From NCBI RefSeq assembly GCF_024227715.1, contig NZ_CP100448.1:1178001-1242000 (forward strand): a stretch of DNA of 64,000 nucleotides. The letters are read 5' to 3'. This stretch comes from Halomarina litorea (GTDB lineage: Archaea > Halobacteriota > Halobacteria > Halobacteriales > Haloarculaceae). The notes under the pieces are model-generated. The model did not search any database. It saw only the letters and a program-made list of their open reading frames with translations, and was not told the origin of the DNA. Both the position numbers and the translations under genes were made by a program. This document shows positions 31,253-55,798 of this stretch, piece by piece; the stretch's first letter is position 1, and each line of letters opens with the position of its first letter.

Positions 31253-32062
31253 TCAGTCCCGGTCCTGTTTCTGGAGGCGCTTGGTCGTCTCCACGAGGGG
31301 GTGGTGGGCGTAGTCGACCTCCTGAATGTCGTCGATGTCGACGAGGTTCTCCTTGCGGGCGGTCTCTGCGATGCCGAGGGGGACCCGTTCGTCGAGGACG
31401 ATGACGTAGGCGTCCATCTCCTCGATGCCCTGCCGGTTGGCGGCCTTCACGCGGTGGTGGCCGTCCGCGAGGAGCAGTCGGTCCCCGCCGTTGTCGATGA
31501 CGACGAGCGGTTCCGCCAGCCCGTTCTGGAGTTCGTACGAGCGTCCCTCCAGTTCGTCCGTGTAGACGCGCGACTGCGTTGGGGTGAGTCGCGAGAGCGC
31601 CACCTTGCGGCGCTCCTGACGCATGTCGACCCCGTGGATGTTCCGCAGAGTCTCGATGAGTTTCTCCACCTTGCTCGGCGTCGCGCGCTCGATCTGCGAG
31701 CGCACCACGTCGGCGTTCGAGATGATCCCGACGAGGTTGCCCGTGTCGTCGACGACGGGGAGTTTCTGGATGCCCGACCGCAGGATGACGCGCGCGGCGT
31801 CGGTGATGTCCATGTCCGGGTGCGCGACGATGAGGTCGTCGTTCATCACCTTGAACATCGGCTCGTAGTCCTCCGCCAGGAGGAGGTCGCGGGCGCTGAC
31901 GAACCCGTGGACGCGCCGCCCGTCACACACCGGGAACCCGGAGTGCTCCTTGCTCTCGGAGATGCGACGCTTCACGTCGTCGACCGTCTCGTCGACGCCC
32001 ACCGTGACCACGTCGCGGGTCATGTAGTCCTTGACGCGCGGCTTGTGCTCGCCCTCGGCCAT
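31253..32062 (-). CDS. CBS-domain protein with a C-terminal ParB-like domain
   Basis: Two hundred and sixty-nine residues. Two CBS motifs (about residues 10-65 and 75-130) contain VKDYMTRDVVTVGVDETV, SGFPVCDGRRVHGFVSARDLLL, LRSGIQKLPVVDDTGNLVGIISNADVV. The C-terminal part contains LLLADGHHRVKAANRQG, the DGHHR core of ParB/sulfiredoxin-fold domains. CBS pairs bind adenine nucleotides, so the protein probably senses ATP, AMP or a cyclic dinucleotide and switches the ParB-like domain. The ATG at 32062 begins MAEGEHKPRVKDYM; nine extra residues upstream are possible. It lies about 200 bases downstream of the TrkA-N/DHH gene on the same strand. Confidence 0.88.
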   Translation of the reverse strand: MAEGEHKPRVKDYMTRDVVTVGVDETVDDVKRRISESKEHSGFPVCDGRRVHGFVSARDLLLAEDYEPMFKVMNDDLIVAHPDMDITDAARVILRSGIQKLPVVDDTGNLVGIISNADVVRSQIERATPSKVEKLIETLRNIHGVDMRQERRKVALSRLTPTQSRVYTDELEGRSYELQNGLAEPLVVIDNGGDRLLLADGHHRVKAANRQGIEEMDAYVIVLDERVPLGIAETARKENLVDIDDIQEVDYAHHPLVETTKRLQKQDRD

Positions 32063-32267: not shown

Positions 32268-33767
32268 TCAGGTCTCCCTGTCCTCGTTCGCCCCGACGGG
32301 CAACCCCCCGATGCCCTCCCGGTACAACTCGGTCACGTCCCAGTCGGGCCGCGACCGGAGCGTCTCGAAGAAGCGGTCGTTGATCACGTCCTCAATGATG
32401 CCGGTGAGTTCCTCGCCGCTCTCGTCGTCGACGCTCCCGAGCAACCCGAGGGAGATCTGCGCGCCCGCCATGTCGGCGTGCCCGCCCGCGTCGCCGATCT
32501 GCGAGAACGCCTCGCGGAGCGTCTCGCCGACGTCGAGGTCCGTCCCGCGGGTCCGCGCGGAGGCGTAGATGGTCCCGTCGCGGTAGCCGTAGACGAGCGT
32601 CGTGGCCACGTCCTCCAGGTCGAGCAGGCGGTCTGCGGCCTGTGCGAGGGCGTCGCGCGACCGGAGCCGACCGACACAGGAAGTCAGCACGCTCCCCCGG
32701 ACCTGCCGGTTGCGGATGGCCCGACCGACCGTCTCGATGGTGTCGACGCTGATGCTCGGTGACTCGACGCGTTCGAGCGTCGCCGTGTCGACGTACGGGA
32801 GGAGGTAGGCGGCGGCCTCGAAGTCCTCGACGGACACCTCGCGGCTGAAGTCCTTGGTGTCCACCCGGATACCGTAGAGGAGGCCCGTCGCCACCGACTG
32901 GGACGGTGTGAGACCGAAGGCGTCGAGGTAGTCCGCGAGCAGGGTGCTCGTCGCCCCCACGTCGCTCCTGAGGTCGACGAACGTCGCCTCGATGGGTTCG
33001 CGCGGCGGGTGGTGGTCGATGACGATGTCGATGGGCGTGTCCTCCGGCAACTGGTCGTTGACGCCGGGGCGGGAGTGGTCGACCAGCGCGAACCCGGCGA
33101 ACCGCGAGAGGTCGTCGTCCGCTTCGAGGTTCGTCAGGTCGTACTCCAGTAAGTTGACCAGCGCGCGGTTCTCCTGGTGGGTGATGTCGCCGTAGTAACA
33201 GGGTTCGGCCTCGCACCCGGCGGCGGCCGCGATGGCGACCAGCGCCGTCGCGCTCGCGATGGCGTCCGGGTCGGGGTTGTCGTGCATCACGACCGCCAGC
33301 GGGCCGTCGAGCCCCCGGAGGACCCGCCGGAGCTGGCGCAGGCGGAGGTTTCCCCGCCCGGCGGTCCCGAGTACCTCGTCGGCGACGAGCGCGATGGGGT
33401 CGACCACGGTGTCGGCCACCGACGCGATGGCCGCGCGCTGGTCGTCCGTTGGGTCCTCCCCTAAGCACACGAGGACTACCGCGTCGGGGAAGGCCTGCTT
33501 CGCGGCGAGGGCCGCCTGGTGGTTCTGGTCGGATTCGCGCCCCGCGACGACGACGCTCTCGACGGACGGGTCGTCGCCCCCGTGCGACCGCGTGATGGCC
33601 GCCGGGTCGGTACAGTCGCCCAGTTGCGCCGGGATGTTCTCCCCGCGGAGGGTTTCGACTCGGTTCTCGTTGTCGGTGATGACCAGCATCTCGCCGGGCA
33701 CCTCCCGTAGCTCGTCGATGAGCGTGTGCCCGAGCGGCCCACAGCCGAGGACGAGCCGAGTCGTCAT
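32268..33767 (-). CDS. TrkA-N (RCK) domain fused to DHH-DHHA1 phosphoesterase
   Basis: Four hundred and ninety-nine residues. Residues 1-140 form a nucleotide-binding Rossmann domain (LVLGCGPLGHTLIDEL; VITDNENRVETLRGENIPAQLGDCTDP), as in K+ channel regulators. Residues 150-350 form the DHH domain with MHDNPDPDAIASATAL, LVDHSRPG and IDHHPP, and about 400-470 the DHHA1 domain with GGHADMAGAQISLG. The DHH-DHHA1 pair resembles NrnA/GdpP-type phosphodiesterases that degrade oligonucleotides or cyclic di-AMP. Fusion to an RCK-like domain suggests a link with potassium or osmotic control. All catalytic Asp/His motifs appear intact. The extreme 3' end (GGTCTCCCTGTCCTCG on the plus strand) has a near copy about 70 bases further downstream, at around 32199-32214. 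Confidence 0.88.
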   Translation of the reverse strand: MTTRLVLGCGPLGHTLIDELREVPGEMLVITDNENRVETLRGENIPAQLGDCTDPAAITRSHGGDDPSVESVVVAGRESDQNHQAALAAKQAFPDAVVLVCLGEDPTDDQRAAIASVADTVVDPIALVADEVLGTAGRGNLRLRQLRRVLRGLDGPLAVVMHDNPDPDAIASATALVAIAAAAGCEAEPCYYGDITHQENRALVNLLEYDLTNLEADDDLSRFAGFALVDHSRPGVNDQLPEDTPIDIVIDHHPPREPIEATFVDLRSDVGATSTLLADYLDAFGLTPSQSVATGLLYGIRVDTKDFSREVSVEDFEAAAYLLPYVDTATLERVESPSISVDTIETVGRAIRNRQVRGSVLTSCVGRLRSRDALAQAADRLLDLEDVATTLVYGYRDGTIYASARTRGTDLDVGETLREAFSQIGDAGGHADMAGAQISLGLLGSVDDESGEELTGIIEDVINDRFFETLRSRPDWDVTELYREGIGGLPVGANEDRET

Positions 33768-33892: not shown

Positions 33893-35398
33893 TTACGCGC
33901 CGACCATCGTCGCGGCCGCCTCGAACGCCGTGTCCGAAAAGAACCCGAGGGCGGGCAGGAGGAGCACCGTCACGACGGCCGCGGCGACGATGGCCGCGTA
34001 CAGGCCCGTCGGGTAGCCGTCGATGGCGAACTCGCCCGCGGCCTCCTCGAACCAGAGTGCCTTGACGATGCGCGAGTAGTAGAACAGCGACAGCGCGCTG
34101 TTGACGATGAGCGCGGCGGCGAGGATGAGCGTCCCCACCGTCGCCCCGCTGACCGCACCGAGCAACAGGAAGTACTTCGAGAGGAAGCCCGCCCCGATGG
34201 GCAGGCCGGCCAGGTTGAACAGGAACACCGTCATCGCCACGCTGGCGACCGGTGCCTTCGACCCGAGACCGTTGTAGTCCTCGAAGGTGCGCCCGACGCC
34301 CCAGTACTCCGCTAGCGCGATGAACAGGAACGCGCCGGTGTTCATGAAGCCGTAGACGACGAGATGAATCATCCCGGCACCGAGCACGAGCGCCGTGTCC
34401 GCGTTCCCGGTGAGCGCCGCCAGTGCGATGAGCACGTAGCCCGCGTGCCCGATAGAGGAGTACGCGAGCATCCGCTTGACGTTCTCCTGGGTCGCCGCCG
34501 CGAAGTTCCCGAGCGTCATCGTGACGAGCGCGAGAATCTGGAAGGTGAGCACCCAGTCGACGCCGCCGAGCGCCCCCTGGGGGAACGCGACGGTGAACGC
34601 CCGGAAGGCGATGACGAACCCGGCGGCCTTACTCGCAGAGGAGAGAAACGCCGAGATCGGCGCGGGCGCGCCCTCGTAGGCCTCCGGCGCCCAGAAGTGG
34701 AACGGGACGCTCGCGGTCTTGTAGGCGAATCCGCCGATGATCATCAGCACGCCGATGCCGAGGACGCCGACGAGCCCCTCGTCAACGCCACCCTGCAGCG
34801 CCTCCGCGATGGCGGGCAGCGAGAGGTGGCCCGTGACCCCGTACACCAGCGAGATGCCGTAGACGAACACCGCCGACGACAGCGCGCCGATGAGGAAGTA
34901 CTTCAGTCCCGCCTCGACGCTCCCGCGGTTCCCCTTGAGGAACGCGACGAGCGCGTACGACGGGAGCGAGGCGAGTTCGAGGCTCACGAAGATGGTCGCG
35001 AGCGAGTTCGCCGCCGCCATCAGCGACATCCCCGTCGCCGCCAGCAGGACGAGGCTGTAGTACTCGGCCTTGTAGCGCTGGCCGGCGAGGTAGTCGTACG
35101 AGGCGAGACAGACCAGCGCCGTCACGCTCGTGAAGATGAGCGTGAAGAACAGGCTCATCCCGTCGACGACCAGCTGGCCGCCGAACAGGTCGACGGCCTG
35201 TCCCGCGTTGGTCACGAGGACGACGCCCGTCGCGACCAGCGCGACGAGCGCTCCACCGACGGAGAGGCCGGCGAGGAGCGTCGGGCGCGACGAGTCGGGG
35301 TCGATACTGTCGACGACCAGGACGAGCAGCGCCGCCACGCCGAGGACGATGGTCGGCGCGAGCGCGAGCGTCCCGCTGACTTGGAGTGACTGGAACAT
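33893..35398 (-). CDS. nuoN: NADH-quinone oxidoreductase-like subunit N
   Basis: Antiporter-like membrane subunit of complex I, 501 residues and about 14 helices, last gene of the nuo operon. Typical segments are ELASLPSYALVAFLKGN (with the conserved Glu), KYFLIGALSSAVFVYGISLVYG, GFAYKTASVPFHFWAPEAYEGAPAP and NVKRMLAYSSIGHAGYVLIAL. Lys and Glu residues of the proton path are present. Its ATG directly abuts the nuoM stop. Confidence 0.95.
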   Translation of the reverse strand: MFQSLQVSGTLALAPTIVLGVAALLVLVVDSIDPDSSRPTLLAGLSVGGALVALVATGVVLVTNAGQAVDLFGGQLVVDGMSLFFTLIFTSVTALVCLASYDYLAGQRYKAEYYSLVLLAATGMSLMAAANSLATIFVSLELASLPSYALVAFLKGNRGSVEAGLKYFLIGALSSAVFVYGISLVYGVTGHLSLPAIAEALQGGVDEGLVGVLGIGVLMIIGGFAYKTASVPFHFWAPEAYEGAPAPISAFLSSASKAAGFVIAFRAFTVAFPQGALGGVDWVLTFQILALVTMTLGNFAAATQENVKRMLAYSSIGHAGYVLIALAALTGNADTALVLGAGMIHLVVYGFMNTGAFLFIALAEYWGVGRTFEDYNGLGSKAPVASVAMTVFLFNLAGLPIGAGFLSKYFLLLGAVSGATVGTLILAAALIVNSALSLFYYSRIVKALWFEEAAGEFAIDGYPTGLYAAIVAAAVVTVLLLPALGFFSDTAFEAAATMVGA

Positions 35399-53270: not shown

Positions 53271-53794
53271 GGGCCCTCCCGTTCCCACCCGCGGTCGTGG
53301 GGGGACTCGGATTCGAGTTCCTCGTCGATGTCTTCCTGGGTGAAGTCGAAGAAGCGCTCCTGTGGGTCCTCGAGGCCGACCGAGAGCACGTCGAGGTCAC
53401 GGGGCTCCCCCTCGCGGTCGAACGCCCGCCAGTCGTCGCGGCCGTAGGGCGCGCCGACGATGATGTGGACCTTCCCGGAGCCGAAGGTGGCGAGGTCGGC
53501 GTCGCTCGGGCGCAGGACGCCGTTGGGATGGGAGTGGACCGACCCGGCCGCACGGAGGTCGTTGGGGACCATGCTCGTCTTGACCGTGGCGCTGACAGGG
53601 TTCGATTCGGTGCCGGGGATAACCAGCACGTCGGTGATGACCGTCCCCTCCTCGTCGAGGCCCAGCGAGCGGGCGTCCTCGCCGCGCAGGAGGCCCATGT
53701 ACTCGTTGGGGTGGGTCCGGGCGGAGGCCTCGATGACGAACTCGAGGGTCGCCTCGGCGATGCCGAGGACCTCGCCGGAACGGAACAGCCGCAT
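53267..53794 (-). CDS. JAMM/MPN+ metalloprotease, desampylase-like
   Basis: One hundred and seventy-five residues, a bare JAMM domain. The zinc site is complete: E31 in HPNEYMGLL, and H87/H89 with downstream Ser and Asp in [16 protein letters not shown]. Archaeal enzymes of this type remove SAMP ubiquitin-like modifiers. Haloarchaea usually have two paralogues and I cannot tell which this is; a neighbouring FAD synthetase gene would favour the less-studied one. The tail (about 150-175) is very acidic. Translationally coupled to ribL. Confidence 0.85.
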
Positions 53795-53865
53795 GTGTTG
53801 GGAGAGTCGCGGTTTCCATCTAAGGGTTCCGGAACCGCGGGGCGGGCCCCCGGCGGGACTGCTTG

Positions 53866-53880
53866 CCAAAAGTTAAAAAC
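53866..53880 (+). promoter_or_regulatory. TATA-like element of the S1-OB-DHH gene
   Basis: AAAAGTTAAAAAC stands out in GC-rich DNA about 27-35 bases before the ATG at 53903, consistent with a leaderless transcript. The region is the divergent promoter between this gene and the JAMM-ribL operon. Confidence 0.55.
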
Positions 53881-53902
53881 GGGCGGGACCGAGAGTTGGC
53901 AA

Positions 53903-55798
53903 ATGTCTCCATCGCATGCCGGAAGTTCCGGCACGGTCTCTACTACCACGGTCTACGACCTCGCTCCCGACTGCACAACAGAGTCGGTCGACGTCGGTGA
54001 ACACTACCACGCCGCGGTCAACGGCGTCGTCCCCTACGGCGTCTTCGTGGACGTCTCGGACCACGTCTCCGGACTCGTCCACGAGTCGGTCCTGCAGGGC
54101 GAGTACGGCGTGGGCGACTCGCTCATCGTCCGCCTCGACGAGGTGCGCGAGAACGGCGACCTCAGCTTCAGCGAGGCCACCCTCGAGGACTACCAGACCG
54201 AGGCGATATCCGACGAGAGCGACGTCACCGTCGACGCCCTCGCCGACCATCAGGGCGGGACCGTGCGGCTGACGGGTGAAATCGTCCAGATCCGACAGAC
54301 GGGCGGCCCGACCATCTTCCAGGTCCGCGACGAGACGGGCATCGCCCCCAGCGCGGCCTTCGAGGAGGCAGGCGTCCGCACGTACCCCGAGTTCGACGTC
54401 GGCGACCTCGTCACCCTCGTCGGCGAGGCGGAGAAACACGACGGTTCGGTGCAGGTCGAAGTCGAGTCGATGTCCCCCGTCGACGACCCCGGGGCCGTCC
54501 GCGAACGCCTCGACGCCGCCCTCGACGAGGCCGCCGAACCGCACGACGTCGCCCCCCTCGTCGAGTGGGAGGCCTTCGAGCCGGTCTTCGAGGACCTCCG
54601 GACCGTGGCGAAGGCCCTCCGCCGGGCCGTCCTCGACGGCAGACCAATCCGGATGCGCCACCACGCGGACGGCGACGGAATGTGCGCCAGCGTCCCCCTC
54701 CAGCACGCGCTGGAACGCTACATCGAGAGCGTCCACGCGGACGTCGGCGCCCCGCGCCACCACCTCCGTCGCCTCCCGTCGAAGGCCCCCTTCTACGAGA
54801 TGGAGGACGTCACGCGCGACCTGAACTACGCGCTGGAAGACGAGGAGCGCCACGGCCAGAAACTCCCCCTCCTCCTGATGCTCGACAACGGGTCGACCGA
54901 GGAGGACACGCCCGCCTACCGCACCCTCGCGGAGTACGACATCCCCATCGTCGTTGTCGACCACCACCACCCCGACCCCGAGGCGGTCGAACCCCTCGTG
55001 GCCGAACACGTCAACCCGTACCTCCACGGCGAGGACTACCGCATCACCACGGGGATGATGTGCGTCGAACTCGCGCGGATGATCGACCCCGACATCACCG
55101 ACGAGGTACGCCACGTCCCCGCCGTCGCGGGCCTCTGTGACCGCTCGCGCGCCGAGGTCATGGACGACTACCTCGCGCTGGCCGCCGAGGAGGGCTACGA
55201 CGAGGACGCCCTCGACGACGTCGGCGAGGCCCTCGACTACCTCGCCTTCCGCCTGCGCTACAACGACGGCACCGACCTCGTCAACGACGTGCTGAACGTC
55301 GCCTGCGACGACAGGGAGCGCCACGAGGAACTCGTCGAGTTCCTCGCCACGCGTGCCGAACGCGACCGGGACCGCCAACTCGACGTCACCCTCCCGCACC
55401 TGGAAGCGGAGACGCTCGACAACGGGGCGAACCTCTATCGAATCGACGTGGAGAACCACGCCCACCGCTTTACCTACCCCGCACCGGGGAAGACGACCGG
55501 CGCGGTCCACGACCACAAGGTCCGCGAGCACGACGGCGACCCCGTCATCACCATCGGCTACGGCCCGGACTTCGCCGTCCTCCGCTCGGACGGCGTCCGA
55601 CTGGACATCCCCGAGATGGTGACGGAACTGACCGACGAGCATCCCGGCGCGGGCGTCAGCGGCGGCGGCCACCTCGTCGTCGGGTCCATCAAGTTCGTCC
55701 CCGGCAAGCGCGAGGCGGTCCTCGACGCCCTCGTCGAGAAGATGAGCGAGGCCGAAATCGACGAGGACCTGCGCTCGACACTCCTGCGCGACGACTGA
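53903..55798 (+). CDS. S1/OB/DHH-DHHA1 RecJ-like nuclease
   Basis: Six hundred and thirty-one residues. About 20-85 is an S1 domain (HYHAAVNGVVPYGVFVDVSDHVSGLVHES). About 110-185 is an OB-fold (GGTVRLTGEIVQIRQTGGPTIFQVRDETG). The DHH domain follows with RHHADGDGMCASVPL, LMLDNGSTEED and VVVDHHHPDPE, and the DHHA1-like end has SGGGHLVVGSIKFVPG. This is the architecture of archaeal RecJ-like exonucleases, including Hef-associated types. Catalytic residues look intact. The ATG at 53903 fits the promoter; a longer frame upstream is antisense to the JAMM gene. Confidence 0.88.
   Translation: MSPSHAGSSGTVSTTTVYDLAPDCTTESVDVGEHYHAAVNGVVPYGVFVDVSDHVSGLVHESVLQGEYGVGDSLIVRLDEVRENGDLSFSEATLEDYQTEAISDESDVTVDALADHQGGTVRLTGEIVQIRQTGGPTIFQVRDETGIAPSAAFEEAGVRTYPEFDVGDLVTLVGEAEKHDGSVQVEVESMSPVDDPGAVRERLDAALDEAAEPHDVAPLVEWEAFEPVFEDLRTVAKALRRAVLDGRPIRMRHHADGDGMCASVPLQHALERYIESVHADVGAPRHHLRRLPSKAPFYEMEDVTRDLNYALEDEERHGQKLPLLLMLDNGSTEEDTPAYRTLAEYDIPIVVVDHHHPDPEAVEPLVAEHVNPYLHGEDYRITTGMMCVELARMIDPDITDEVRHVPAVAGLCDRSRAEVMDDYLALAAEEGYDEDALDDVGEALDYLAFRLRYNDGTDLVNDVLNVACDDRERHEELVEFLATRAERDRDRQLDVTLPHLEAETLDNGANLYRIDVENHAHRFTYPAPGKTTGAVHDHKVREHDGDPVITIGYGPDFAVLRSDGVRLDIPEMVTELTDEHPGAGVSGGGHLVVGSIKFVPGKREAVLDALVEKMSEAEIDEDLRSTLLRDD

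Follow-up and report, generated by a model that had tools for sequence, protein, structure and literature searches.

The window analysed, a stretch of 64,000 nucleotides from Halomarina litorea, harbors on its minus strand a TrkA_N-DHH-DHHA1 gene (32268..33767), an open reading frame of 499 amino acids with an ATG start. The TrkA_N/RCK_N-like Rossmann domain comprises approximately residues 4-131 (33375..33758, minus strand) and contains the glycine motif GCGPLG and Thr31. The DHH catalytic domain (residues 156-300; 32868..33302, minus strand) carries HDNPDPDA, VDHS and DHH, and motif IV (VDT, residues 302-304) is located just downstream of it. The DHHA1 substrate-binding domain (residues 357-440; 32448..32699, minus strand) contributes the SAR and GGH motifs. 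Matches to Pfam TrkA_N (residues 4-98, E 2.2e-11), DHH (residues 157-299, E 3.4e-10) and DHHA1 (residues 358-439, E 1.7e-11; numbering without Met1) were each above the gathering cut-off. They were the only Pfam domains detected; RCK_C (TrkA_C) and nucleic-acid-binding domains were absent. The motifs HDNPDPDAIAS, ALVDHSR, IDHHPP, GIRVDTKDF and GGHADMAG are readable in the translation. All DHH metal ligands of motifs I-IV are present and the 11-residue catalytic set is intact, so the protein is catalytically intact as far as motifs can indicate. The GGH of the DHHA1 domain occurs in 106/106 window-type orthologues. An AlphaFold model built on relatives was confident in both halves (mean pLDDT 86), with values below 50 solely past residue 475. 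Open reading frame, Pfam matches and motifs agree with the original prediction, which had read a Rossmann domain of the K+-channel-regulator type joined to a DHH-DHHA1 phosphodiesterase with intact DHH motifs. Chance does not account for the architecture, since one orthologue each is found in 114 of the 116 haloarchaeal genomes sampled, with an identical catalytic set in all 106 aligned.

Downstream on the same strand follows a gene for a protein with CBS repeats (31253..32061, minus strand). This gene adjoins the DHH gene in the same orientation in 69/69 haloarchaeal loci, with a median gap of 40 bp; in the window, 206 bp separate the DHH gene from the probable CBS start codon (ATG at 32061). 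As adenine nucleotides are common ligands of CBS domains, the CBS protein is a plausible partner. One CBS repeat gave a weak NCBIfam match (E 5e-5, below cut-off) to CbpB, which binds c-di-AMP. This match makes the CBS protein a candidate effector. Its C-terminal DGHHR region resembles the ParB/SerK type, as judged by eye only. Upstream lies the gene for a NuoN-like NADH dehydrogenase subunit (Proton_antipo_M; 33893..35398, minus strand), which ends the nuo operon; the same arrangement was observed in 60 of the 69 loci. The window encodes a further, RecJ-like DHH protein on the plus strand (53297-55798, L090:3298-5799; start codon provisional) with OB-fold and weak S1 matches. An anti-phage role of the DHH gene was discarded after PADLOC gave no match.

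The catalytic half is most closely related to c-di-AMP phosphodiesterases. With the family profile, the best match in the PDB was the c-di-AMP phosphodiesterase 9n0l (E 1e-19), spanning DHH and DHHA1. Matches to NrnA and Rv2837c were much weaker (about 5e-8 to 9e-8). Family II pyrophosphatases ranked behind 9n0l and matched the DHH part alone, although for the DHH domain by itself the profile scores of GdpP and pyrophosphatase were close. In Foldseek searches with the window model, the GdpP catalytic domain took the top four places (E 4e-20 to 9e-20), followed by two enzymes of c-di-AMP/pApA, DhhP and the Thermotoga maritima phosphodiesterase TmPDE, and then by a Deinococcus RecJ-like protein and Rv2837c. 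By profile and by fold, the closest solved relative is thus a c-di-AMP phosphodiesterase. Membrane helices, a PAS domain and a degenerate GGDEF domain were not found in the window protein with Pfam. Lacking the domain plan of GdpP, it is expected to work like GdpP without being one. The genome of H. litorea encodes a DacZ-type cyclase (DACZ_N and DAC), so enzyme candidate and cyclase occur together in this organism.

Beyond the haloarchaeal order, the family is almost always single-copy. A member was found in 109/119 genomes of the phylum sample, which takes in 22 genomes of the haloarchaeal order, and in 84/85 genomes of the Thermococcus phylum. With the diadenylate cyclase (DAC) domain also searched for in these 119 genomes, the gene proved absent in 10, the DAC domain in 12, and both in 8. 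Both are missing in all six sampled members of one family, f26 (G149, G162, G170, G190, G194, G198), and in two of the four sampled genomes of the genus g57 (G160, G180), whose two congeners have both. Fisher's exact test yielded a naive p of 2.7e-8, which rose to 0.0014 when f26 entered as a single case and to 0.014 when g57 was collapsed as well. Exceptions occur in both directions: G121, G152 and G219, the last belonging to the Thermococcus phylum, have a cyclase without the gene, and G130, G135, G181 and G193 have the gene without a cyclase. The co-loss provides moderate support for a link of the family to c-di-AMP. The members of f26 and the two g57 genomes may have lost c-di-AMP signalling altogether. 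Many haloarchaea possess a third paralogue consisting of DHH-DHHA1 only (L223-L232, mostly open frames of 340-490 amino acids), which is absent from the H. litorea genome.

The N-terminal half matches the N-domains of KtrA and TrkA (residues 4-139) and PDB 3llv by profile. The latter is the N-domain of an 'exopolyphosphatase-related protein' from Archaeoglobus fulgidus; the architecture has therefore been present in databases for years, and searches of the open-access literature for it found nothing. The window protein has kept GxGxxG, but has Thr31 in place of the acidic, ribose-binding residue with which beta-2 ends.

A second TrkA_N-DHH-DHHA1 protein of H. litorea (L088, C1:1572943-1574331), 39% identical to the window protein, is catalytically degenerate. 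Its motif I reads SPSPSPDS, DHH is changed to DHA, and the Asp of motif IV to Glu. This paralogue is present in 116/116 haloarchaeal genomes and is more conserved than the window type, with identities of 63-79% except in two divergent small genomes (47% and 58%). In Halobellus salinus, window type and paralogue (L060, L192) are divergent genes side by side, and a second genome of the same group (G096) has them likewise as divergent neighbours. An alignment of 187 proteins comprised 106 of the window type, 51 paralogues and 30 single-copy relatives. Among the window-type sequences, 37 came from a whole-protein search without motif patterns; this subset guards against bias, since motif I was part of one search pattern and the beta-2 region part of another. 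The 11-residue catalytic set is identical in 106/106 window-type proteins (37/37 unbiased), and GxGxxG with the beta-2 acid is found in 13/106 (12/37 unbiased). The paralogue has the reverse pattern, with the Rossmann signature in 51/51 and the full catalytic set in 0/51. The single-copy archaeal relatives retain the signature in 29/30 and the catalytic set in 30/30, exactly in 21 and with Glu for the Asp of motif IV in 9. That exchange alone does not mean inactivity, given its presence in the nine single-copy relatives. Mean pairwise identities in the same 19 species were 0.36 for the Rossmann domain of the window type versus 0.70 for that of the paralogue, a divergence about twice as fast, and 0.59 versus 0.74 for the catalytic half.

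Of the 51 paralogues, 46 have lost the second His of DHH. Exchange of this residue (H79A) inactivated a DHH pApase from an archaeon, whereas H78A left it active (PMC8268124). The ligand residues D168, D230, D251, H252, R405 and H430 are kept in 49-51 of 51 paralogues, and the predicted fold of the Halobellus salinus paralogue still has GdpP as best match. Judged by sequence and model, the paralogue site looks like one retained for binding and not like a ruin. Simple decay was rejected in view of the presence in every genome, the higher conservation and the kept ligand residues. A uniform loss of DHH was likewise dismissed, as 5/51 paralogues retain it, three of these with a motif-I His to Gln exchange. 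The other two (L169, L176) are changed only in the GGH glycine and by Asp to Glu in motif IV. The latter also occurs in intact relatives, so that residual activity is possible in both. In the phylogenetic tree, window type and paralogue each form one clade with support of 100. A tree holding both clades together is better (p-AU 0.82), and a single duplication is not rejected. A duplication exactly in the haloarchaeal stem is favoured by the tree, which is not proof.

For Haloferax volcanii, cyclic di-AMP has been reported to be essential, at a level that requires tight control. The organism contains c-di-AMP and pApA, and the phosphodiesterases are given as unknown (PMC8646023). HVO_0756, HVO_0990 and HVO_1690 have been listed as predicted c-di-AMP phosphodiesterases of H. 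volcanii, in a paper that describes the phosphodiesterase as not identified and cites PMID 32095817 for the three (PMC8305020). The original prediction of the 'missing haloarchaeal c-di-AMP phosphodiesterase' is thus supported in its substrate reading but is not new; the substrate idea is old and the enzyme had been proposed. Assays of an archaeal c-di-AMP phosphodiesterase, or of any TrkA_N-DHH protein, were not found in the open-access literature searched. New here are the opposite decay of the paralogues and the joint loss of gene and diadenylate cyclase, of which we did not find an earlier description. Haloferax relatives have exactly three family homologues. In Haloferax massiliensis, a single contig holds them at 436, 1136 and 1365 kb, and dacZ lies 43 kb away from the ablated one. 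At about one gene per kb, the spacing fits an assignment of the ablated copy to HVO_1690 (near dacZ, HVO_1660), the window type to HVO_0990 and the DHH-DHHA1-only protein to HVO_0756. The positions in Haloferax relatives suggest that the window gene is the counterpart of HVO_0990. A proteome study of H. volcanii placed HVO_0990 and HVO_1690 under DNA recombination/repair and found both increased with hypochlorite (PMC10294847); if the assignment is right, the intact and the ablated protein rise together.

That grouping, and the hypochlorite response of both proteins, would accord with a RecJ-type nuclease of DNA repair, where some annotations place the protein. A RecJ identity is nevertheless highly improbable and was rejected: the H. 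litorea genome encodes separate RecJ-like proteins (the DHH_CID aRecJ L091 and the OB/S1-DHH protein L090), the window protein has no nucleic-acid-binding domain, and its best fold match is a cyclic dinucleotide phosphodiesterase. Less remote, yet still unlikely, is an enzyme of the NrnA or DhhP kind acting chiefly on pApA, nanoRNA or pAp, with another enzyme opening c-di-AMP. TmPDE, DhhP, Rv2837c and NrnA score only slightly below GdpP in fold, and one archaeal NrnA-type DHH enzyme cuts pAp, but neither c-di-AMP nor pApA (PMC8268124). However, the profile match to GdpP is far better than that to NrnA, and a housekeeping nanoRNase is not expected to vanish together with diadenylate cyclase. 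In addition, nearly all Thermococcales, one of which has the pAp-specific enzyme (PMC8268124), also carry a TrkA_N-DHH-DHHA1 gene.

A different question is whether the same polypeptide senses NAD(H) or ATP in its Rossmann pocket and thereby gates its own phosphodiesterase site, as originally predicted. The RCK_N domain with its GxGxxG agrees with such gating, and the single-copy relatives, retaining both sites, indicate that the ancestral protein was probably self-gating. Thr31, the full signature in only 12/37 clade members versus 51/51 paralogues, and the fast divergence of the Rossmann domain weaken the proposal for the window protein, for which it is rather doubtful; in the single-copy relatives from other archaea, self-gating is more probable. 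A split pair of enzyme and sensor is favoured over gating by the window protein's own nucleotide pocket.

The best explanation, with a probability of about 0.6 for the substrate, is a GdpP-like c-di-AMP phosphodiesterase. As originally suggested, c-di-AMP is the most likely substrate, which we infer from homology to GdpP and phyletic co-loss with diadenylate cyclase. The domain architecture, the intact catalytic set, the GdpP-like fold and the complementary degeneration of the paralogues were established at the level of sequence comparison. The window protein would be a two-metal DHH-DHHA1 phosphodiesterase converting c-di-AMP to pApA, perhaps further to AMP. Within a pair of haloarchaeal paralogues that goes back to a single-copy sensor-enzyme of archaea, it would be the catalytic member. 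Against c-di-AMP stand the variable substrates of DHH-DHHA1 enzymes, the third paralogue of many haloarchaea (not of H. litorea), which could carry the activity, and the exceptions to the co-loss in both directions. A tentative scheme starts from an ancient single-chain sensor-phosphodiesterase of archaea, which would have been duplicated in the stem of the haloarchaea, with its two functions divided between the copies. The window type would have kept c-di-AMP hydrolysis and lost the nucleotide sensor; the paralogue would have lost catalysis while retaining the sensor and the majority of the residues in contact with ligands. It may now act as a receptor of nucleotide and c-di-AMP controlling its active twin, probably as a hetero-oligomer, and the operon-linked CBS protein may be a further adenine-nucleotide sensor. 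Regulation of, or complex formation with, the window protein by the ablated paralogue is itself a tentative step. If true, the split would be a clear-cut case of subfunctionalisation in the second-messenger control of archaea. The analysis singles out the intact candidate with full architecture among the three published H. volcanii candidates and predicts for the HVO_1690 type a role as conserved receptor or regulator in place of an enzymatic one. Both predictions are open to direct tests in a tractable archaeon.

Among known systems, the GdpP/YybT catalytic domain shares all metal ligands, DT(K)xF, SAR, GGH and the overall fold with the window protein. GdpP carries membrane, PAS and GGDEF domains, whereas the window protein has no membrane part and carries an RCK_N-like Rossmann domain at its N-terminus. 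NrnA, Rv2837c and DhhP, acting on pApA, nanoRNA and pAp, have the same DHH-DHHA1 fold and catalytic motifs, but are stand-alone enzymes with a weaker profile match. The RCK N-domains of KtrA and TrkA match the Rossmann fold of residues 4-139; the window protein lacks their acidic ribose ligand and RCK_C, the c-di-AMP-binding part of KtrA. The archaeal TrkA_N-DHH-DHHA1 proteins, i.e. the HVO candidates and the A. fulgidus protein of 3llv, have the same architecture. HVO_0756, HVO_0990 and HVO_1690 were earlier listed as equal candidates, whereas the motif states found here distinguish one intact protein, one ablated protein and one without the Rossmann domain.
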